49,930 nucleotides of DNA from an uncultured Schlesneria sp. (lineage in GTDB: Bacteria; Planctomycetota; Planctomycetia; Planctomycetales; Planctomycetaceae), in assembly GCA_903899985.1 (NCBI GenBank), contig CAIULL010000295.1:1-49930 (forward strand), written 5' to 3'. Numbering within the stretch: the first letter of the stretch is position 1; every line of letters starts with the position of its first letter. A model generated the notes under the pieces. That model did no database searches and was not told the origin of the DNA. It was given only the letters and a program-made list of their open reading frames with translations. Positions 3,646 to 42,929 of this stretch are shown one piece after another. The position numbers and the translations under genes are program-made.

Positions 3646-5334
3646 TTACAGCCTTTTTGAAAGTCCTTCAGCCAGGCGCTTCAGTGCCTGACTGATATCG
3701 TCGGGTTCGAGGTGTACGTTCAAAATACTGAAGGCGTCTTTGTGGGCGAGTGCTGCGTTCAGCGACTGATCCAGATCACCTTCCGTGCGGACCTCAAAGC
3801 CCCAGCCACCGCCGAGAAGATCGGGCATGCGATGGTAGTTCCAGTTCAAAATGTCGTTAAAGGGACCATCCTGAAGGAATCTTTCCGTCGTATATCCCTT
3901 GTTATTCAGAACGATGACAATCGGGTTGAAGCCGTGTCGGACCGCAGTGGAAAGTTCCATGCAGGTCATCTGAAACGCCCCGTCACCGACGAGTACGATC
4001 GGGCGTCGGTCGGGGGCGGCGACGTTGACGCCAATCGACGCCGGCACGGCGAAGCCCATCGATGTGTAATAGGCGGGGCTGATGAATTCGGTCTTACGGA
4101 AAATTGTCAGGTCGGCTGCCCCAAACAAACAGTCGCCGACATCCGCGATCACAATCATCGATTCGTCGAGCAGATCATTGATCCTGGCGAACAGTCTGGC
4201 GTTCGTAATCTTGGCGTTGGGTTTCAACACAAACTTCGTATCGGCCCCCTTAGGCTTGGCGAGCATCGTTCGTTTGGGAACCTTCAGTTCAAGTTGTCCC
4301 AGCCCGCGTACGAAGTCTGTCACCAGAATATCATGGAAGTGATGGTGCGAGATCCGTGTCTGATCAGCTGTCGAATAGATCGATTTTGCCGGATCGAGAT
4401 TGGCTGTGAAAATTCCCATGTCGATATCGGTCAGAAAGGCCCCCAGCATGATCAGGCAATCGCTCTCTTCGACGTACTGACGCAAAGCGTCCCGGCACAT
4501 GGCCCCTTCGTACACACCGAGATAGAGCGGGTGCTTTTCGCTGACTACCGATTTTCCCAGCAGGGTGGCACACATCGGAATCGAATTCTTTTCAGCGAAC
4601 TTGACGACTTCGTCTTCCAGTCCGAAGCGGTGCATTTCGACACCCGCAATAATGACGGGCTTCTTGCTGGCGTTGATGGTTCGCTTCGCTTCGGCGAGCG
4701 ACTCGCGCAGGGCGTCTTTGTCGCTGATGAATGTTTCGGTTTTGGGGACATGCGGATAGGGGCATTTTGTATGGACGCGGTCACGAGGGAGTTCCAGGTA
4801 GACTGGTCGCTTCAGTCGCACGGCGGTTTCCAGGCAGCGATCGATTTCTCGAAACGCGGTTAACGGGTCTTCGAGCGAAGCACTGGCAACCGTAATCTTT
4901 TCGAAGACCTCACGCTGAGTATTGAAGTCTCGCACGCGATGGTGCAGCAGGGGGTTCGAGCGTCGTTCGTCGACACCGGGGGCACCACTGATGACAACAA
5001 CGGGCGATTTCTCTGCGAACGCTCCCGCGATCGAATTGCAGAGGCTGAGGCCTCCCACGCAATACGTGACACAAACGGCACCGATGCCATTGATGCGGGC
5101 ATAACCATCAGCGGCATACCCTGCGCAATCTTCGCGAGTACACCCGATGACCTTGATGGGGCTGTCTTCGAGCATTCCATAAAACTGGAGTACGAAATCA
5201 CCGGGGATACCAAAAATATCTGTCAGCCCGAAATCCTGAAGTCGCTGGATGAGGTAGCTGCCAATCGTCAGTTCGACTTTTGTTTTTGTGGCGGGTTTGG
5301 CTTTCGTCTTCGCTATAATCGATTTTTTAGCCAT
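3646..5334 (-). CDS. Thiamine-diphosphate alpha-keto acid decarboxylase (PDC/IPDC-like)
   Basis: A 562-residue ThDP enzyme of the pyruvate/indolepyruvate decarboxylase class, which converts a 2-keto acid to an aldehyde and CO2. The ThDP-activating glutamate lies in [15 protein letters not shown] (Glu68). The paired active-site histidines typical of decarboxylases, rather than acetolactate synthases, are His131-His132 in [10 protein letters not shown]. The Mg-ThDP motif begins at GDG (450-452) and ends at the Asn pair 477-478. The order is the standard PYR, central and PP domains. A lysine/alanine-rich N-terminal tail (residues 1-20) precedes the PYR domain. The ATG is preceded by gaggga with a suitable spacing. 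Substrate preference (pyruvate, phenylpyruvate, indolepyruvate, branched chain) is not determinable here. It heads a two-gene operon with the acetamidase-like gene and is divergent from the BtpA-like gene. Confidence 0.9.
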
Positions 5335-5454
5335 TTTGGTCCCTCGATCGAGATAGGATCAGGTTTTGAATTCGGAACAAATCATTCGGCCTCAGTTGCA
5401 AAGTATCTGTCCGTTCCCGAAAGTCCGCAAGACGCTTTTCAAGGAGCCTTGACG

Positions 5455-6255
5455 ATGTTACTTGCCAAATGGTCATCTTTGTCATGTCCCGTGATCGGGA
5501 TGTTGCATGCCCCTCCCCTTCCCGGCTCGCCCGAGTACGAAGGTGAAATGGCATCGGTTCGTCAGACAGTTCTTCGCGATGCCGAAGCTCTGGTCGAGGG
5601 TGGTGTTGACGGACTGATGCTTGAGAACTTCGGGGATTCGCCGTTTTATCCGGATCGAGTTCCGGCGATTACTGTCGCGGCCATCACCGCGCTGGCCAGC
5701 GATCTGCGGTGGCGCTTTGATGTTCCGCTTGGGATTAACGTCCTGAGAAACGACGGTCGAAGTGCTCTTGCCATCGCAGCCGCCTGTGGAGCGTCTTTTA
5801 TTCGAGTGAATGTCCTTTGCGGTGCGCGAGTGGCGGATCAAGGCCTGTTGCAAGGGATCGCTCACGATCTTTTGCGAGAACGAGCCAACTTGCGAGCCTC
5901 ATCCATTCAGATCTGGGCGGATGTTGACGTCAAGCATTCTGCTGCGTTCGCCGACCGGCCTCTGGCTGACGAAGTGCAGGATTTGATCGACCGAGGGAAA
6001 GCCGACGCGGTGATTGTCTCGGGATCAGCGACCGGGCAGCCGGTTGATCTGGGGACGCTGAGCATCGTCAAAGATGCGGCCCGGTCGACGCCAGTCCTGG
6101 TGGGGAGTGGAGTCAACTCGGAGACGATCCACCTGATGCTGCCTTATGCCAACGGTGCGATTGTTGGATCGAGTCTCAAACAGGATGGCAGCGTCTGGAA
6201 GCCGGTCGACGTTGCCCGAGTCAGACAGTTGGTTCATGCGGCGCATCGTTCGTAA
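5455..6255 (+). CDS. BtpA/SgcQ family protein
   Basis: This 266-residue protein matches the BtpA family, predicted TIM-barrel proteins. BtpA itself is needed for photosystem I accumulation in cyanobacteria, while homologues in non-phototrophs have no settled role and sometimes sit in sugar or nucleoside gene sets. Recognisable segments are PVIGMLHAPPLPGSPEYEG at the start, VDGLMLENFGDSPF, IWADVDVKHSA and GSGVNSETI near the end. I chose ATG 5455 because aaggag lies at 5441-5446; the frame is open further upstream but that part is antisense to the decarboxylase gene. There is no sign of photosynthesis genes, so a photosystem role is unlikely. Confidence 0.88.
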   Translation: MLLAKWSSLSCPVIGMLHAPPLPGSPEYEGEMASVRQTVLRDAEALVEGGVDGLMLENFGDSPFYPDRVPAITVAAITALASDLRWRFDVPLGINVLRNDGRSALAIAAACGASFIRVNVLCGARVADQGLLQGIAHDLLRERANLRASSIQIWADVDVKHSAAFADRPLADEVQDLIDRGKADAVIVSGSATGQPVDLGTLSIVKDAARSTPVLVGSGVNSETIHLMLPYANGAIVGSSLKQDGSVWKPVDVARVRQLVHAAHRS

Positions 6256-33598: not shown

Positions 33599-35047
33599 AT
33601 GACGTTTTTCGATCGTAACCTTGAAATCACTCGACGCCATTTTTTTCAGGACTGCCGCGTCGGGGTGGGAAAAATCGCCTTGGCGTCGCTGTTGGCGCCG
33701 GCGGGCGGGTCCGTGCGGGCCGAGAGTTCAAAGATAGCTCCCCTTGCGAATCCGATGGCACCCCGTGCTTCGCATTATGCCCCCAAGGCGAAAGCGGTCA
33801 TTCATCTGTTTATGGCAGGGGCTCCCAGTCAACTCGATCTCTTTGATTACAAACCCAAATTAAAGGAATACGAAGGAAAGCCGGTTCCGCCTGAGATTGT
33901 GGGTGGACAGCGATACGCGTTTATCCGACCCGACGCTCATTGTCTTGGCCCGCGATTCAAATTCTCCCGGCACGGGGAATCAGGAGCCGAACTTTCTGAG
34001 GCGCTGGTCCATCTCCCCAAGATTGTCGATCAAATCACGATCCTCAAAGCGGTCCATACCGATCAGTTCAATCACGCCCCGGCTCAAATTTTTCTCAACA
34101 CCGGATTTTCACAACCGGGCCGCCCGAGTATTGGTTCCTGGGTCACATACGGATTAGGCGCGGATGCCGACGACCTTCCCGCGTTCGTCGTGATGTCCAC
34201 CGGAGGAGGAATTAGCGGAGGAGCCGCGAACTGGTCCAGCGGATTTTTATCCACGAATTATGCAGGTGTCCGTTTGCGGAATCAGGGAGACCCGATCCTT
34301 GATGTTTCCAGCCCGGCGGGGATTGATCCCCAATTGCAACGTGAATCGCTGAATCTGATCAGCAATCTGAATCAACAACGGTTGAATACTGTCGGCGACC
34401 CGGAAATCGCCACCCGAATTTCATCGTATGAAATGGCCTTCCGTTTGCAGACATCAGCCCCGGAGCTCATGAATCTGAAAAGTGAGACCAAAGAGACACT
34501 CGATCTTTATGGCTGCGATCCGGATAAGCCCTCGTTCGCTCGGGCCTGTCTGCTGGCTCGCCGAATGGTTCAACGGGGTGTTCGATTCATTAATATCTAT
34601 CACGAAGGCTGGGATGCCCATTCGGATGTTGCAGGGAATTTGCGCAACAACTTGAAGAACACCGACCAGGCCTCAACGGCCCTCGTGCAGGATCTGGCGC
34701 GGCATGGTCTTCTGGACGAAACACTTGTGGTCTGGGGTGGTGAATTCGGTCGGACGCCAATGGTGGAATCCAACACGGCCCTGGGTCGAAGTCTTGGCCG
34801 CGATCATCATCCTCAGGCCTTTACGATGTGGCTGGCGGGGGGCGGAGTCAAGCGAGGTCTGACCTGGGGAGCCACCGATGAGCTGGGATTCAACATTGTC
34901 GATAAACCGATTCATGTGCACGACCTGCAGGCAACAATCTTGCATCTTCTGGGCCTGGACCATGAACGACTGACGGCGTTTCATGCCGGCCGCGAGTTCC
35001 GTCTGACCGATGTGCACGGGAAAGTCGTGCATGAAATCTTGTCCTGA
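33599..35047 (+). CDS. DUF1501 domain-containing secreted protein
   Basis: A 482-residue DUF1501 protein. A twin-arginine motif (ITRRHFFQDC) and hydrophobic segment (GKIALASLLAPAGG) indicate Tat export. Core motifs are HLFMAGAPSQLDLFDYKPKL, GGEFGRTPM and GRDHHPQAFTMWLAGGGVKRG. The last is characteristic of the large subgroup encoded beside DUF1553 genes, but none is present here. It has the best ribosome site in the window: aggagg at 33586-33591, seven bases before the ATG. It is monocistronic; the next gene starts 333 bases downstream, beyond a hairpin repeat. Confidence 0.93.
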   Translation: MTFFDRNLEITRRHFFQDCRVGVGKIALASLLAPAGGSVRAESSKIAPLANPMAPRASHYAPKAKAVIHLFMAGAPSQLDLFDYKPKLKEYEGKPVPPEIVGGQRYAFIRPDAHCLGPRFKFSRHGESGAELSEALVHLPKIVDQITILKAVHTDQFNHAPAQIFLNTGFSQPGRPSIGSWVTYGLGADADDLPAFVVMSTGGGISGGAANWSSGFLSTNYAGVRLRNQGDPILDVSSPAGIDPQLQRESLNLISNLNQQRLNTVGDPEIATRISSYEMAFRLQTSAPELMNLKSETKETLDLYGCDPDKPSFARACLLARRMVQRGVRFINIYHEGWDAHSDVAGNLRNNLKNTDQASTALVQDLARHGLLDETLVVWGGEFGRTPMVESNTALGRSLGRDHHPQAFTMWLAGGGVKRGLTWGATDELGFNIVDKPIHVHDLQATILHLLGLDHERLTAFHAGREFRLTDVHGKVVHEILS

Positions 35048-35228: not shown

Positions 35229-35380
35229 TTCACTTCCCAGGCAATAAAAGTGCACTGGGTGACCGAAAAGGCTCATCAAGTGGCACCTGATTCATGAGAA
35301 TGGACAACGCACGAGAAGTTTTTGATCTGAACGCGATCTGTTGTTGACTGTTTGACCTGGCTGAAATTGAAAGGAAATTG

Positions 35381-36112
35381 ATGGCTGTTACTGGATTGAC
35401 GAAGGAACAACTCGACGCCTTGCGGCAGTTTGATTCGCCGACGATTTGCAATGCTGTCGAGTTGTGGAACTTACGGCCGCGAAATACGGGCTATATGAGC
35501 CTGGCGATCAAGGCTTGCTTTCCGGCGTTTCCACCGATGGTCGGATACGCATTGACCTCCACGTTCCGAAGTATGGCACCACCACGTGGTGGCGACGCTT
35601 ATGGAAGCATCGGTGCACAGTTGGACGCCTTCGGGGACATTCCTGGTCCACCCGTGATTGTTTTTCAAGACCTTGATGAACCGAGCGCTTCGGCGACATT
35701 CGGTGAAGTCATGTGTTCCACCTACAAGCGGTTTGGAGCGCAAGGTCTGATCACGTCAGGGACCGGTCGCGACCTCGCTCAGGTCGAAGCATTGGGGTTT
35801 CCCACATTCACGAATGGTGCCTGTGCGGCGCACGGTTACTGTCATATTCTGACAATCAACGGCCCGGTGACGGTTGGCGGAATGATCATCTATCCGGGCG
35901 ACCTCCTGCATGGCGACCTGAACGGGGTCACCACGATTCCCACAGAAATCGCCACGGAAGTTCCCGAGGTCTGCCGTGAGATTGCCCGTGCGGAAGCGAT
36001 TGTGCTCGACTATCTCAAACGAGAAAACGTCACCACCACGGGATTTAATGCGGCGCGAAAAGAATGCGGTGACGCAATCAATGCTCTTGGTAAAAGATTA
36101 CGGAGCGATTGA
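35381..36112 (+). CDS. RraA family protein (aldolase-like)
   Basis: A 243-residue RraA/HMG-aldolase fold protein. Members include the RNase E inhibitor RraA and class II 4-hydroxy-4-methyl-2-oxoglutarate/oxaloacetate-type aldolases. Visible: [13 protein letters not shown] at the start, [25 protein letters not shown] with the substrate/metal Arg-Asp, then [13 protein letters not shown] and [16 protein letters not shown]. It is longer than E. coli RraA (about 160 residues), which favours an enzymatic or regulatory relative. ATG 35381 has aaagga upstream. It starts a compact operon: the TAXI protein begins 3 bases after its stop. Confidence 0.88.
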
Positions 36113-36115
36113 AAA

Positions 36116-37462
36116 ATGGGTGGTGGCGTGGCACGGAACGTCGAAAAACATCGATCTTCGTTGTTGACCTGGCTTGCCGTATTGCTTGTCTGTGTCGGCG
36201 GGATGGTCACAACCTATTACCTCTTTGTCGAGGCTCCGCCTCCGCGTCGCCTTGTCATTGCCACCGGTGCCAGGGAAGGTGCCTACTACCGATTCGCGCA
36301 ACAATATGCCGAACTGTTAAAACCTGAGGGAATCACCTTAGAGATTCGCTCCACTGAGGGGTCCGTCGAGAACCTGAGACTGCTCATGGATGAGCAGTCG
36401 GACGTGACGGTGGCGTTTGTTCAGACGGGGATTGCTGATCCCCTGCAGAGTGAATCGCTATTCGCGCTTGCCAGTCTCTATCGAGAACCGCTCTGGATTT
36501 TCTTTCAGGGATCGGAAGTGATTGACCGCTTGACTCAGCTCAAGGGACGGCGAATCGGAATTGGATCAACAGGAAGTGGAACCCAAGGCATCGCACTTCA
36601 GCTATTGAAGGCGAACGGGTTTGACGAAAAATCAGACCTGTTATTAAGCCTTGGTAGCAACGATGCCGCCGACGCTCTTGAAAAGAAAGAAATCGATGCG
36701 GCGTTTTTTGTTGCTGGTATTAATGCTGAATATATTCGACGACTGATTACGAATCCCGATGTCCATCTGGTCGAACTGGCACATACAGAAACGTACGAAC
36801 GACAATTCCGGTTTCTGACGTCCGTGACAATTCATGAGGGATTGCTCGATCTCCAGCAGAACATTCCATCGAAAGACATCGAATTGATTGCCCCCGCCGC
36901 AACGTTGGTGGCTCATCACTCAATTCACCCGGCGCTGGTGTCATTATTGCTGAAAGTCGCTGGCAAGGTTCATTCAAAAGGAGATCTACTGTCGAATGTG
37001 GGAGAATTCCCATCCTCGCAGATGACGGACCTTCCGTTGAGCGAGGATGCTGCGCGATTCTTCCGTGCCGGACCTCCGGTGCTGCAACGGTACTTGCCAT
37101 TCTGGCTGGCGTCGCTTGTTGACCGGCTGAAAATCATGATCATTCCTCTGGTCATGCTGTTGATGCCCTTATTGCGAGTCGCTCCTCCTCTTGTCCGGTG
37201 GCAGACACGCCGCAAGATCTATAAATGGTACGCCGAACTGCGTCAGATCGATCAACGGACAATTAAAGGGATGTCTCGTGACGAAGCGACCCAGTCCCTG
37301 GAACATCTTCAACGATTGGAACAGCGGATTGCACGAGTCGGTGTTCCTCTCAGTTATATGGAAGAATATTACAACTTGAGGCTGCATCTGCATCTCGTTC
37401 GTACTCATGTCAATTTGATTCTCAGACCAAACGATGGCGTTGTTTCAGGAGCTGCCAAGTGA
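36116..37462 (+). CDS. TAXI family TRAP-type solute-binding protein, double membrane anchor
   Basis: A 448-residue protein. An N-terminal transmembrane helix (about 17-38, LLTWLAVLLVCVGGMVTTYY) is followed by a TAXI periplasmic binding domain: VIATGAREGAYYRFAQQYAELL, IRSTEGSVENLRLL, GIGSTGSGTQGIALQLL. A second hydrophobic helix lies near residues 337-360 (IMIIPLVMLLMPLL), then a basic, helical, probably cytoplasmic tail (YAELRQIDQRTIKGMS...). Classical TAXI proteins are soluble and feed TRAP permeases, but no DctQ/DctM-type permease is present. With both ends anchored, it could be a sensor or a binding subunit for the oxidoreductase encoded next. Its TGA overlaps the GTG start of that gene (GTGA), implying translational coupling. 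Confidence 0.88.
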   Translation: MGGGVARNVEKHRSSLLTWLAVLLVCVGGMVTTYYLFVEAPPPRRLVIATGAREGAYYRFAQQYAELLKPEGITLEIRSTEGSVENLRLLMDEQSDVTVAFVQTGIADPLQSESLFALASLYREPLWIFFQGSEVIDRLTQLKGRRIGIGSTGSGTQGIALQLLKANGFDEKSDLLLSLGSNDAADALEKKEIDAAFFVAGINAEYIRRLITNPDVHLVELAHTETYERQFRFLTSVTIHEGLLDLQQNIPSKDIELIAPAATLVAHHSIHPALVSLLLKVAGKVHSKGDLLSNVGEFPSSQMTDLPLSEDAARFFRAGPPVLQRYLPFWLASLVDRLKIMIIPLVMLLMPLLRVAPPLVRWQTRRKIYKWYAELRQIDQRTIKGMSRDEATQSLEHLQRLEQRIARVGVPLSYMEEYYNLRLHLHLVRTHVNLILRPNDGVVSGAAK

Positions 37463-40400
37463 CTGCTGCGATCAAGGATGATTTTCCACTGGGGATTGCT
37501 GGTTTCTCGTTTGCGGACCTGTACGAACCGCGGCGGTTGCGTCACTTGCACGAAGAGTTCTGGAAATATGCAGGTAATGTCAGTCCGGATCTTGCCACTC
37601 GTTTTGCAAGGCTTGACGAACCTACACTGACAAAGCCGCACGTGTCTGAGGTCCTGATCGATGTGGCGGGGCTTCTTGGAGATTTTCTGGGCCGCTTGTT
37701 CGATATTCGCAGTGATGTCGAGCGTTTGTCAGACGAGACACTCAGTTACGAGAAGATCTTTCAATTCAAACAGGACTTTCTGCGAACTCGCGTCTTCAAG
37801 CATTTTGGTAAGGTGAGTCTTGACGACGCGGCCTATCAAGTCCTCGAACAGGAAGTTCAACGACTTGTTGTCGCCGTTCCACTGCAACAAGATCCCGAGA
37901 TCCGTTTTGCGGAAACCGTACTGACGCTGCTGCACTGCCAGTACGCCTTGGCGGGCAAGGCCGATGATTCGCAGAACGCCGCAGCAGAAAGAATCTGCGC
38001 CCATCGAACCGAAGGGACGCTCGGCGAAAAAGTGGAACAAGCGCTGTCTGTGCTTGGTGATTGGTGCGTTCAAGTGAATGCCACGCCCGAGCGACGGCGC
38101 CTGGTTGACGGGTGGGTTTCGTTTACACGACCGGAAACATTGGACTATGAACAACTTGTTCAGATTGAACGACCTCAAGCTGATCTTCAGGAACTGATCG
38201 TCGGTCCACACGAACATCGACGTCAACGGGACGGATTTAAACTGACTGATGCTCGCATGGATCGAAAAGAGTATCTGCGCGAGATCGACTATTGTGTCAT
38301 CTGCCATCCGCGTGAAAAGGACTCGTGCTCGCACGGTCTTCGAGACAAATCTGGTGGATTGCAGCGCAATCCCCTGGGGATTGCTCTCGCAGGCTGTCCG
38401 CTCGAAGAACGAATCTCCGAGATGCATCAGTTGCGTAAGCGCGGCGCTGCCATCGCCGCGTTGGCGATGATCATGCTCGACAATCCGATGTGTCCCGGGA
38501 CGGGGCACCGGATCTGCAACGACTGCATGAAAGGTTGCATCTTTCAAAAACAGGACCCTGTCAACATTCCCCAGGCCGAAACAGGGGTCGTCAGTGATGT
38601 CCTGAATCTGCCGTTGGGGTTCGAAATCTACAGCCTGCTGACGCGATTCAATCCCCTGAATCGACGCCGCCCGTACGCGCTTCCCTACAACGGCGTTGAT
38701 GTGATGGTTGTCGGTCTGGGGCCTGCGGGTTACACGCTGGCTCATTATCTGGCTAACGAAGGGTTTGGAGTGGTCGGTATCGACGGCCTGAAGCTGGAAC
38801 CGATTTCTGATTCGCTGACCGGTCAGGGCAGACCGGTGGCGACTCCGATTCGCGACTTCGGGATTTTGAAACAAGAGTTGGATCAGCGGGTTCTGGCGGG
38901 GTTCGGAGGGGTCTCTGAATATGGCATCACCGTCCGCTGGGACAAGACTTTTCTCGCCGTGATGTACCTGACGCTGTTGCGACGCCGAAACGTCCGATTT
39001 TTTGGTGGCGTTCGCTTTGGAGGAACGCTGACTATCGACGATGCCTGGGAACTTGGATTCCGCCACGTTGCACTGGCCACGGGAGCGGGCAAGCCGACGA
39101 TCGTCCCCATGAAGAACCATATTCTTCGTGGTATCAGGACCGCCAGCGATTTTCTGATGGCGCTGCAATTGACCGGTGCCTTCAAAAAGTCGACCCTGGC
39201 CAATTTACAGGTCCGGCTTCCCGGAATCGTCATCGGTGGCGGTTTGACCGCGATCGACACCGCCACCGAAATGCTGGCCTACTATCCTGTCCAGGTGGAA
39301 AAAACGCTGGAACAGTTCGAGAAACTGACGGCCGAATTCGGTGAACAAAGTGTCTGGAGTATGTGCGATCCGGAAGAGTCTGAGATTCTTCAAACGTTCC
39401 TGGAACATGGCCGGGCCGTGCGTGCAGAAAGAGACGCCGCTCGACGCGATCAGCGACTGCCGGATCTTGCCGGTTTGTGTGATCAATGGGGTGGCGTTTC
39501 GGTCGCGTATCGGAAACGGATGGTCGATTCCCCCGCGTATCGATTGAACCATGAAGAAGTCGTCAAGGCTCTGGAAGAAGGGATTCGCTTCGTCGAAAAC
39601 GTGGTCCCGACGGAAGCAATTCCCGATTCCTACTACGCCGTTTCGGCCATTCGTTTCAAACGGGCCGACGGCCAGGAAGTCGTACTTCCCGCGAGGGCTG
39701 TCTGTTACGCCGCCGGTACGACCCCCAATACGGTCTGTGAACGCGAGGCCCCGGGAAGTTTCCAACTGGATGCCGAAGGACGGTTCTTCCAGAAGCACAA
39801 GCTCGTTCCGGATGCCGACGGATGGAAGCTGGAGCCTGTTCACGAAGTGTCGCGAGAAGCGTTCTTCATGTCGTACGAAAACCAGGGTCGGTTCGTGTCG
39901 TTCTACGGCGATAATCACCCTGACTTTGCGGGAAACGTCGTCAAAGCGATGGCGTCTGCCAAGCATGGCATCCGTCAGGTGACGCGCCTGTTTGCCAAAG
40001 AGATTGCTCGTGCGGAACACGAAACGACGCCGCTCGAAAAATTCAACAACTTGACTCAACGTCTGGATGAAGCCCTCGTCCCTCGGGTGGTTGAGGTCAA
40101 ACGTTTAAATTCGAAGATCATCGAAGTCATCGTGAAGGCTCCGTACGCTGCTCGTCGGTTTCAGCCTGGCCAGTTCTACCGCCTGCAAAACTACGAATCG
40201 CGAGCGCCACTGGTCGATGGGATCAGGATGACGCTGGAAGGAATCGCCTTGACGGGTGCCTGGGTCGATCCCGAACGAGACCTTTTGAGCATGATCGTAC
40301 TGGAAATGGGGGTGAGCTCGCGGTTGTGTGCCGTGCTGAAGCCCGGGGAACCTGTGGTCGTGATGGGACCGACGGGTGCGCCGAGCGAAACTCCCGCCGG

Positions 40401-41076
40401 GGAAACTGTGCTGCTGGCAGGTGGAGGATTGGGTAACGCGGTGCTGTTCTCGATCGGCAAAGCGCTGCGCGCACGCGGTTCGCGCGTTATTTATTTTGCC
40501 GGCTATAAAGATCACGAAGGACTCTTCTTTCAGGATGCCCTCGAAGAGGCGACCGATCAAGTTGTCTGGTCGGTTGATAAGGGTGAGCCGATCATCCCGC
40601 ACCGGAAGTCAGACTTGTCATTCGTCGGAAACATTGTGCAGTCGATGCTCGCTTATGCGAGGGGTGAACTTTCCGGCACGCCCATGATTCCGCTGAATGA
40701 AGTCGATCGCATTATTGCCATTGGCTCTGATCGCATGATGGCCGCCGTGTCGGAAGCCCGGCATACGGTTCTCAAGCCGTACCTTAAGCCGAATCATGTG
40801 GGGATCGCCTCGATCAATTCCATGATGCAGTGCATGATGAAGGAAGTCTGCGGACAATGTGTCCAGCAACACGTTGATCCGACCACAAAGTCGCCGACTG
40901 AAGTCGTATTCTCTTGTTTCAACCAGGACCAGGAGATGGACTGCGTGGATTTCGCAAACCTTCGGCAACGACTTCGCACGAACAGCCTTTCAGAAAAGCT
41001 GACCAACCGGTTCCTGGACTTACTGATTGCTCACAGCGACCAGGAAGGCCAGAACCTGATGAACGTTCAACAATAA
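37459..41076 (+). CDS. Fused NfnAB-like iron-sulfur flavoprotein oxidoreductase
   Basis: A 1205-residue multidomain oxidoreductase. Residues 1-270 are a helical region I do not recognise. Residues 275-365 resemble the GltD/NfnB N-terminal 4Fe-4S domain: cysteines at 279, 282, 290, 313, 345, 353, 356 and 360, with GCPLEERISEMHQL and RICNDCMKGCIFQKQDPVNI. An FAD-binding Rossmann motif GLGPAG lies at 419-424, a second dinucleotide motif IGGGLTAIDTATE near 591-603, and AVCYAAGTTPNTV later. From about 870 a ferredoxin-reductase/PyrK-NfnA-like module follows (VEVKRLNSKIIEVIVKAP, RFQPGQFYRL, LAGGGLGNAVLFSIGKAL near 984), ending with Cys1125, 1131, 1134, 1153 and 1162 in a PyrK/NfnA-type cluster (VCGQCV...SCFNQDQEMDCVDF). 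NfnAB bifurcates electrons between NAD(P)H and ferredoxin in two subunits; here both are in one chain. The GTG start overlaps the TAXI stop by 4 bases. The function is inferred. Confidence 0.85.
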   Translation: MTAAIKDDFPLGIAGFSFADLYEPRRLRHLHEEFWKYAGNVSPDLATRFARLDEPTLTKPHVSEVLIDVAGLLGDFLGRLFDIRSDVERLSDETLSYEKIFQFKQDFLRTRVFKHFGKVSLDDAAYQVLEQEVQRLVVAVPLQQDPEIRFAETVLTLLHCQYALAGKADDSQNAAAERICAHRTEGTLGEKVEQALSVLGDWCVQVNATPERRRLVDGWVSFTRPETLDYEQLVQIERPQADLQELIVGPHEHRRQRDGFKLTDARMDRKEYLREIDYCVICHPREKDSCSHGLRDKSGGLQRNPLGIALAGCPLEERISEMHQLRKRGAAIAALAMIMLDNPMCPGTGHRICNDCMKGCIFQKQDPVNIPQAETGVVSDVLNLPLGFEIYSLLTRFNPLNRRRPYALPYNGVDVMVVGLGPAGYTLAHYLANEGFGVVGIDGLKLEPISDSLTGQGRPVATPIRDFGILKQELDQRVLAGFGGVSEYGITVRWDKTFLAVMYLTLLRRRNVRFFGGVRFGGTLTIDDAWELGFRHVALATGAGKPTIVPMKNHILRGIRTASDFLMALQLTGAFKKSTLANLQVRLPGIVIGGGLTAIDTATEMLAYYPVQVEKTLEQFEKLTAEFGEQSVWSMCDPEESEILQTFLEHGRAVRAERDAARRDQRLPDLAGLCDQWGGVSVAYRKRMVDSPAYRLNHEEVVKALEEGIRFVENVVPTEAIPDSYYAVSAIRFKRADGQEVVLPARAVCYAAGTTPNTVCEREAPGSFQLDAEGRFFQKHKLVPDADGWKLEPVHEVSREAFFMSYENQGRFVSFYGDNHPDFAGNVVKAMASAKHGIRQVTRLFAKEIARAEHETTPLEKFNNLTQRLDEALVPRVVEVKRLNSKIIEVIVKAPYAARRFQPGQFYRLQNYESRAPLVDGIRMTLEGIALTGAWVDPERDLLSMIVLEMGVSSRLCAVLKPGEPVVVMGPTGAPSETPAGETVLLAGGGLGNAVLFSIGKALRARGSRVIYFAGYKDHEGLFFQDALEEATDQVVWSVDKGEPIIPHRKSDLSFVGNIVQSMLAYARGELSGTPMIPLNEVDRIIAIGSDRMMAAVSEARHTVLKPYLKPNHVGIASINSMMQCMMKEVCGQCVQQHVDPTTKSPTEVVFSCFNQDQEMDCVDFANLRQRLRTNSLSEKLTNRFLDLLIAHSDQEGQNLMNVQQ

Positions 41077-41513: not shown

Positions 41514-42929
41514 TCATGCCCGTAACAGTTCGCTGATCGGCTCGCCGAAAGGAAGAATTGGCATCGGTCGACCACGATGATCGGGGAACGAATCGGAATA
41601 GTCGATTCCCAGGTGCCGATAGACAGTGGCCCAAAGATCGTTCGGCGTTAATGGGCGGTCTGCGGGGTGTTCCCCTTTGGAGTTGGTTGAGCCGATGACC
41701 AGACCGGTGTTAACGGCACCAGCCATGATAAACGACATCGCTTGTGGCCAGTGATCGCGACCGGGCTGACGGACACCAGTTTGTGACCCGACAGAACTCT
41801 CCAGTCGCGGCGTTCGTCCAAACTCGCCCGTCACAAGGATCAGCGTCCGACGGTCTAGGCCACGCTGCTGAACGTCGTCAATCAACGCGGTGACGGCCTG
41901 ATCATAAATCGGAAGTCGGACTTTCAGGTCATCCCAGATATGGCAGTTCACCGCGTGCGAGTCCCAGTTGTAAACCCCTTGCTTCAGCTGTGGCACTCCG
42001 GATTGATAGGGGTTTTCCATGATGACCGTGACGAAATTCACGCCGGCCTCGACCAGGCGACGTGCCATCAAGGCCCGCTGGCCCCAGCAATGTCGTCCGT
42101 AGCGGTCTCGAGTTGCGTCGGATTCCAGCGACAGGTCAAACGCCTTTTTCGCCCGGTCACTGGTCAACATGCTGACCGCTCGCTGCTGATAACGGTCCAT
42201 CGATTCCATCAGTCGCGAGGCATCGATCTGACGTTCGATGCGGTCCAGGCTTCCGAGCAACGACATGCGATCATTGACCCGTCGTCCCACACTTTCCAGC
42301 GGGCTGATGTTCGGAACGACAAAATTCGGGGCGGTGGGATCACCTTCGACCGTGAATGGTAGATATGACGGTCCAAGATACGCAGCACCTTGAGCGAACA
42401 CGTCGCCGGTTCGGCCTCCAGGATTCAGCGACACATAATTCGGAATGCCAATGTTTTGACGTTCCCGAATCTTGGCCACGATCGATCCCGTTGCCGGCGC
42501 ATCATTGACGGTATCGACCGGAGTTAACGGGACTCGACCCGTCATCATCCGCTTATGGCCGCCGCCGTGATCGGCAAAAGTATGTGCCACCGATCGAATG
42601 ACCGAATAACGGTCAGCCATCGCAGCGTGTCGAGGCATCAGTTCACACACATCAAGCCCGGCGACGTTTGTCGGAATCGGATGAAACGCACCGCGATATT
42701 CCGCCGCTGCGTTTGGCTTCATGTCGTACATGTCCATATGCGGCGGACCGCCGGGCAGCCACACAAAGATGACCGAGGTCTCCTGGTCGATCGGCTTTCC
42801 AGCCTCCGCAGCACTGGCTCGCAAACGGAACAGATCCGGCAAACAGAGTCCACCCGCCCCAAGCATCCCGGCAGAAATGAATTCACGTCGTCGGACGGGT
42901 CCCGAACACAAACGAGTTGTTAACGCCAT
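41514..42929 (-). CDS. DUF1501 domain-containing secreted protein
   Basis: A 471-residue DUF1501 protein with a twin-arginine signal (VRRREFISAGMLGAGGLCLP). Core motifs: IFVWLPGGPPHMDMYDMKP, VAHTFADHGGGHKRMMTG, VTGEFGRTPR and PGRDHWPQAMSFIMAG. ATG 42929 has ggaag six bases upstream. It is the third DUF1501 gene in the window and, like the others, lacks an adjacent DUF1553 partner. It is convergent with the NfnAB-like gene across a repeat-filled spacer. The enzymatic role is unknown for the family. Confidence 0.93.
   Translation of the reverse strand: MALTTRLCSGPVRRREFISAGMLGAGGLCLPDLFRLRASAAEAGKPIDQETSVIFVWLPGGPPHMDMYDMKPNAAAEYRGAFHPIPTNVAGLDVCELMPRHAAMADRYSVIRSVAHTFADHGGGHKRMMTGRVPLTPVDTVNDAPATGSIVAKIRERQNIGIPNYVSLNPGGRTGDVFAQGAAYLGPSYLPFTVEGDPTAPNFVVPNISPLESVGRRVNDRMSLLGSLDRIERQIDASRLMESMDRYQQRAVSMLTSDRAKKAFDLSLESDATRDRYGRHCWGQRALMARRLVEAGVNFVTVIMENPYQSGVPQLKQGVYNWDSHAVNCHIWDDLKVRLPIYDQAVTALIDDVQQRGLDRRTLILVTGEFGRTPRLESSVGSQTGVRQPGRDHWPQAMSFIMAGAVNTGLVIGSTNSKGEHPADRPLTPNDLWATVYRHLGIDYSDSFPDHRGRPMPILPFGEPISELLRA

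Follow-up and report, generated by a model that had tools for sequence, protein, structure and literature searches.

The 1205-residue product of the third of three closely packed genes in the window (the whole 49,930-nucleotide stretch of DNA analysed, contig C295 of a genome of 8.0 Mb rated 99.97% complete) is probably a one-chain, presumably soluble, Nfn-like flavoprotein linked to NAD(P)H, with a GltD-type module followed by a PyrK-type module, and the RraA-like and TAXI proteins encoded ahead of it are most likely not its partners. The three genes form a tight operon on the forward (+) strand, to which all feature coordinates below refer. An RraA-like gene of the aldolase/decarboxylase type (35378..36112, 244 aa, TTG start with an alternative ATG at 35381) is followed by a gene for a TAXI-family solute-binding protein (36116..37462, 448 aa) and by the flavoprotein gene (37459..41076, GTG start). 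The placement of these genes in the first-pass annotation was confirmed by the ORF calls and by family scores above the respective cut-offs, namely PF03737 with 72.3 bits (cut-off 24.5) for the RraA-like protein, and PF16868 with 97.2 bits (cut-off 27) and TIGR02122 with 104.8 bits (cut-off 84.35) for the TAXI protein. The junctions were likewise found as described there: the TAXI gene starts 3 bases past the RraA-like gene, and its stop overlaps the GTG start of the flavoprotein gene by 4 bases (GTGA). Both junctions also occur in three other congeneric genomes, and since the TAXI/flavoprotein overlap is kept in these four genomes in total, the two genes have probably been co-translated ever since these genomes shared an ancestor. 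On either side of the three genes lie two unlike proteins (window 33599-35047 and 41514-42929) which we take to be of the DUF1501 type; each is about 25-26% identical to orthologues of the other, and both flanks are kept in the congener locus L038. Elsewhere in the window (4939-6255) a protein of the BtpA family is extended at its N-terminus by about 180 residues that have no Pfam match.

The flavoprotein can confidently be assigned to a chain of NfnB plus NfnA type from its sequence, its predicted fold and its invariant ligands, as had been proposed. The AlphaFold model (residues 1-1196 of 1205) has a pLDDT of 89.2 and a pTM of 0.89, and the structural comparison suggested in the first-pass annotation bore the proposal out, the large subunit of NfnI ranking first in Foldseek against the PDB with a target TM of 0.82 and the small subunit reaching a target TM of 0.84, so that both FAD-type modules, one with the NfnB and one with the NfnA fold, are predicted to be present. 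The query-normalised TM values are low (0.33 for the large and 0.21 for the small subunit) because each NfnI subunit spans one module. Rank 2 was held by Xfn. The NCBIfam model PRK06567 (NF005128) matched all 18 members of alignment A1 (the window's copy and 17 other members from the phylum), and its best stretch in the window's protein covers residues 62-1013 and profile positions 54-924 of 1031, thereby taking in most of the N-terminal domain; with 581.2 bits against a cut-off of 1072, the flavoprotein is by that model not a member. A hydrophobic stretch at 942-960 sits, by hydropathy, within the reductase module, and the protein is presumably soluble, no membrane anchor having been recognised. 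A stand-alone NfnA/PyrK-like frame with one in-frame TGA inside the match was seen elsewhere in the window's genome (contig C110, 41783-42640).

Ligand conservation was assessed in an alignment of 56 sequences (A2), comprising the window's copy and 55 of 80 named loci; 56 had been tried and one, L127, was left out for an unread residue. All 11 cluster cysteines and E374 are invariant in 56/56 sequences from nine phyla, and the conservation of the cysteines in homologues, which the first-pass annotation had made decisive, thus held. Two [4Fe-4S] ligand motifs of GltD/NfnB type (C279, C282, C290, C313, C353, C356, C360 and E374; 38293..38580) lie with their GCP, later Cys and Glu positions in register with the Pyrococcus NfnI large subunit in a profile alignment, and the set of seven Cys and one Glu expected from bifurcating Nfn for two such clusters is present in 56/56 sequences. 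In Thermotoga NfnB the distal cluster is held by C39, C42, C47 and C100 and the proximal one by C51, C90, C96 and E117, as given in the consulted part of PMC7596348. On this model the putative distal ligands here were assigned as C279, C282, C290 and C360 and the proximal ones as C313, C353, C356 and E374. For C279, C282 and C290 the motif is the sole guide, since the interval from C290 to C313 counts 22 residues against 3 in NfnB. The FAD/NAD(P) Rossmann module (38698..39945) was delimited by alignment and predicted fold and contains GxGPAG at 419-424, GGG at 593-595, a helical insertion at about 605-680 and YR[KR] at 684-686. The tested glycine motifs and Y684-R685 are also without exception in 56/56 sequences, residue 686 being Lys in 43 and Arg in 13. 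The PyrK/NfnA-type reductase module (40084..41001), recognised by profile matches, Foldseek and alignment, has GGGLG at 988-992 and the cysteine cluster of its own that had been noted earlier, a Cys4 motif of [2Fe-2S] type (C1125, C1131, C1134 and C1153) with Cys at all four positions in 56/56 sequences. With its four cysteines this motif resembles that of PyrK, and in our reading the C1125 position is the counterpart of an Asp in the Pyrococcus protein. YR[KR] aligns with the YRR of NfnB, a motif described as NADP-related in the consulted part of PMC7596348.

Ahead of these modules stands a domain folded as residues 1-263 (37459..38247), mostly helical with helices from 18 to 216 and a predicted pLDDT of 92.2. 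The first-pass annotation had called it an unrecognised helical domain, and so it proved: Pfam gave no match for the window's copy and a marginal match in 1/52 members, a PDB sequence search with the domain gave no match, and a PDB fold search gave none at E < 0.001, the best being 0.89. It is conserved throughout the family, with L21, L30, F76, F81, E147, L233 and V234 invariant in the 56-sequence alignment. A second alignment (A3), which joins 51 of these loci to the window's copy (L077, L089, L114 and L143 are absent, the last two lacking the motif used for cutting), shows an invariance of residues 257-263 that arises partly by construction through that cutting motif, a bias from which the 56-sequence alignment is free. 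The domain is also kept in members from other phyla, and in 8/9 of their genomes tested no TAXI match exceeded the cut-off. As a feature of the family that occurs where TAXI is absent, it is therefore not a TAXI adaptor by origin, and a conserved domain for which these searches recognised no relative is the concrete question that the flavoprotein family raises.

The flavoprotein was found in 7/59 relatives at E 1e-20 and in 25/392 genomes of the phylum at E 1e-60. A scan of genome contigs gave at least 581 matching stretches; a relative at E 1e-3 is encoded by 554 of them, and the best 80 of these 554 were examined as named loci; among these best 80 the phyla are Planctomycetota, Acidobacteriota, Myxococcota, Pseudomonadota, Nitrospirota, Ignavibacteriota, Chlorobiota, Actinomycetota and Armatimonadota. 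Viral contigs contained no pattern match to the flavoprotein, and a viral fold library gave two partial matches at E < 0.001 with query TM of 0.13 and 0.17. A quick tree, with 14/71 inner branches open, was used solely to place the closest relatives of the window's copy; in it a Proteobacteria MAG groups, at full support, with this copy and that of the congener G006. Ten changes of the planctomycete label are required on that tree, starred branches forcing six of them; the figure of ten is somewhat inflated, as three further planctomycete rows, including the window's, are unlabelled. The gene was likely gained horizontally. In one planctomycete locus (L065, G138:C39, 1592-5718) the flavoprotein gene is present as two overlapping frames, through a frameshift or an assembly error, and in several copies among the 24 loci of neighbour cluster 1 the flavoprotein gene is overlain or closely flanked by a second cluster of very long frames, probably shadow frames of the opposite strand. 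Two deltaproteobacterial loci (L132 and L138) encode on the same strand, some 2 kb ahead of the flavoprotein, a protein with two CxxCxxCxxxCP-type motifs that we presume to be GlpC/heterodisulfide-reductase-like.

The TAXI protein has hydrophobic segments at 20-38 and 338-356. The membrane helices claimed for both of its ends were thus found as two segments, but the second is not terminal, being followed by about 92 residues that start with basic ones. A homologue on a Pseudomonas plasmid, 37.8% identical, has a similar second segment and tail and no flavoprotein among its annotated neighbours, and in 20/22 planctomycete TAXI homologues a hydrophobic segment falls within the final 40% of the sequence, the two misses perhaps being wrong frames. 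Because these homologues show likewise, the second segment and tail are a trait of a wider subfamily. The DctM permease (PF06808) had no match across the whole genome, in agreement with the earlier statement that a TRAP permease is missing, and from its hydropathy the TAXI protein is a binding protein with two membrane anchors, for which no permease was found.

Linkage of the three genes is narrow. With tblastn, TAXI adjoins the flavoprotein in 3/92 distinct other loci having at least 1.5 kb upstream, all three from the same genus with flavoproteins 91-93% identical to the window's, and RraA stands beside TAXI in the same three loci. The 92 are among 105 distinct other loci, a number reached by removing six duplicates and including a few pieces of one gene, and the 105-locus counts exclude L016 and the window's own locus (L002). 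An adjacency table lacks 23/113 locus records, probably where an overlap rule kept another long frame instead of the flavoprotein, and the tblastn counts cover these except for L016. In the congener G006 (flavoprotein 83% identical) the flavoprotein is on C79, TAXI on C57 and RraA on C127, and G002 has the RraA-TAXI pair and no flavoprotein match. TAXI is found at E 1e-8 in 25/59 relatives, including 13/15 of the genus, and an RraA-like homologue at E 1e-40 in 47/59, own genome included. Beyond the four linked genomes, and with G022, G023 and G052 left out, 18 of these 25 TAXI-bearing relatives had their TAXI neighbourhoods inspected; RraA adjoins TAXI in G002 only, and the flavoprotein does so in 0/18. 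Among the 59, each of the seven relatives carrying the flavoprotein also shows some TAXI match at E 1e-8, five of them being of the same genus and one match being weak (26% identity). Across the phylum, TAXI occurs at E 1e-10 in 50/392 genomes and overlaps with the 25 flavoprotein carriers in the window's genome only, leaving 0/24 other carriers with a match (Fisher p for depletion 0.057 without the own genome and 0.23 with it, kinship ignored). Nine flavoprotein genomes from other phyla gave a TAXI-domain match at E 0.001 in three, one of them above the cut-off. A coupling of TAXI and flavoprotein across phyla was accordingly rejected, given adjacency in one genus and, in the phylum sample, co-occurrence in the window's own genome only. 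As to whether the pair is unique to this genome, a point raised in the first-pass annotation, this is nearly but not literally so, three further congeners having it.

It had been proposed that the TAXI protein senses a solute outside the cell and controls the flavoprotein at the membrane through its cytoplasmic tail. The translational overlap kept in four genomes would fit, as would two membrane segments with basic residues after the second, which suit a tail inside the cell, and the TAXI match in every carrier among the 59 relatives. That such control operates is nevertheless very unlikely, considering the adjacency in one genus and the 0/24 other carriers, the similar tail of the Pseudomonas protein with no flavoprotein annotated nearby, the conservation of the N-terminal domain in genomes of which most lack a TAXI match over the cut-off, and the three separate contigs in G006. 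Since RraA and TAXI stand beside the flavoprotein only in few close relatives, a membrane-controlled redox machine is unlikely. It would be similarly far-fetched, if conceivable, that a Schlesneria subclade has placed a horizontally gained Nfn-like enzyme under translational coupling, with the TAXI tail docking on the N-terminal helical domain, as a recent redox switch controlled by an extracellular ligand and built from two otherwise unlinked parts. With the flavoprotein gene, RraA and TAXI make up an operon specific to this lineage, most likely without being mechanistic partners of the enzyme; the TAXI link is best understood as a gene arrangement local to one genus and looks of little importance.

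For the flavoprotein as a one-chain NAD(P)H-linked enzyme, homology suggests that hydride would be accepted or donated at an NADP(H) site of the GltD module, that electrons would pass to the FAD of this module and its two [4Fe-4S] clusters, and that they may continue through the Cys4 [2Fe-2S] cluster to a second FAD and an NAD(H) site of the PyrK module, the net role being that of a transhydrogenase or an NAD(P)H:iron-sulfur-carrier oxidoreductase. The domain architecture, predicted fold and invariant ligand residues are observed; from them we infer cofactor loading, nucleotide preference, direction of flow and an outside redox partner. One homologue lies in an informative gene order, the one such order found: on the Acidithiobacillus caldus plasmid pTcM1 (L228:1650-9324) a probable operon runs GntR, fumarate-reductase-type flavoprotein, small 4Fe-4S protein, HEAT-repeat protein, the ferredoxin FdxA and the flavoprotein homologue. 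This homologue is 44% identical to the window's protein, and its NAD site may be lost since GGGLG of the PyrK module reads AGRWG.

Whether electrons are bifurcated in such an enzyme, with NADPH, NAD+ and ferredoxin coupled at the FAD of the GltD module as in NfnAB, is doubtful though possible. The modules are those of NfnAB, the top fold match is an NfnI subunit, and the divergent A. caldus homologue adjoins FdxA; against this, the second-ranked match Xfn is not known to bifurcate, the carriers include loci titled Myxococcus, Corallococcus, Polyangium and Pyrinomonas, which we take to be aerobes, and the window's genome has no match to the PFOR profile TIGR02176 and a weak one, below cut-off, to TIGR03710. 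Invariant E374 aligns with a Glu of the Pyrococcus NfnI large subunit, which in our reading corresponds to the proximal ligand Glu117 of Thermotoga NfnB (consulted part of PMC7596348), but the [2Fe-2S] motif is Cys4 and not the Asp(Cys)3 given for Pyrococcus in the title of a cited work. It is somewhat easier to imagine, while still short of probable, that the enzyme is a non-bifurcating NAD(P)H:acceptor oxidoreductase for a dedicated iron-sulfur partner. The related enzyme DsrL serves DsrAB in this manner according to the same part of PMC7596348. The A. caldus order, with its fumarate-reductase-type flavoprotein, small 4Fe-4S protein and FdxA, and the PyrK-like character presumed for the Cys4 motif point the same way. 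However, no conserved partner gene of the family was found by neighbour clustering, the adjacent-gene list, ten downstream genes or a ferredoxin motif; a C..C..C...CP motif outside the gene occurs within 6 kb in 3/112 loci, and the ten downstream neighbours are diverse (four without Pfam match, two glycosyltransferases and four each of a different kind). A role as small subunit of glutamate synthase, suggested by the GltD-type module and by database names, is scarcely credible, as a separate GltD-like gene is on contig C284 of the genome and the window has no frame of the size of the large subunit, which is about 1,500 aa, the longest being 1390 aa with FG-GAP repeats.

Compared with published TAXI proteins, the window's protein is familiar in part. 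Membrane-tethered TAXI proteins (PMC11574862) and TAXI proteins with non-TRAP partners, such as TAXI-GltS of Bordetella (PMC12344293), are already in print, and Roden et al. 2023 is cited on membrane anchoring or non-TRAP partners in PMC11574862. As far as the consulted parts of these two papers describe them, those systems have in common with the window's protein the family, the membrane attachment and the absence of an adjoining TRAP permease; the window's protein differs in having two membrane segments and a tail, with no transporter gene recognised beside it.

The flavoprotein shares with the Nfn enzymes of Thermotoga (NfnAB) and Pyrococcus (NfnI) both modules, the cluster motifs, the GGG motifs and YR[K/R] at the NADP site, and is set apart from them by its single chain and extra N-terminal domain, from NfnB by the wider C290-C313 interval, from NfnI by a helical insertion of about 75 residues where NfnI has 8, and from the Asp(Cys)3 site titled for Pyrococcus by its Cys4. 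The family occurs in at least nine phyla, including genera known as aerobes, and its wholly invariant cluster ligands together with the Cys4 [2Fe-2S] motif make it well suited to testing which features bifurcation needs. That NfnA and NfnB are normally separate, as the first-pass annotation had it, is partly true only, because fused homologues are among the four Nfn patterns described in the consulted part of PMC6405883, where the fused forms concerned are uncharacterised and a single aerobe is credited with an Nfn homologue. In Pattern C of that scheme the NfnB-type part comes first and an NfnA-type FAD/NAD/[2Fe-2S] module forms the C-terminal part; the pattern exceeds the other (Clostridium/Bacteroides) fusions in length by about 200 residues, has Mobiluncus curtisii ADI67453 as its type and is named there in Actinobacteria, Alpha- and Gammaproteobacteria (PMC6405883). 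The window's protein has the same order on one chain without overlap, so it is not new in kind. With about 450 residues more than the Clostridium autoethanogenum fusion (2,274 bp, 757 aa) it shares the order of Pattern C and apparently not its stated length, and its family extends beyond the groups named for that pattern in the consulted text to Planctomycetota, Acidobacteriota, Myxococcota, Nitrospirota, Ignavibacteriota, Chlorobiota and Armatimonadota, the Mobiluncus protein being compared by its description only. The flavoprotein is therefore classed as one more of the fused Nfn-like flavoproteins, distinct from PRK06567 and from proven bifurcating Nfn.
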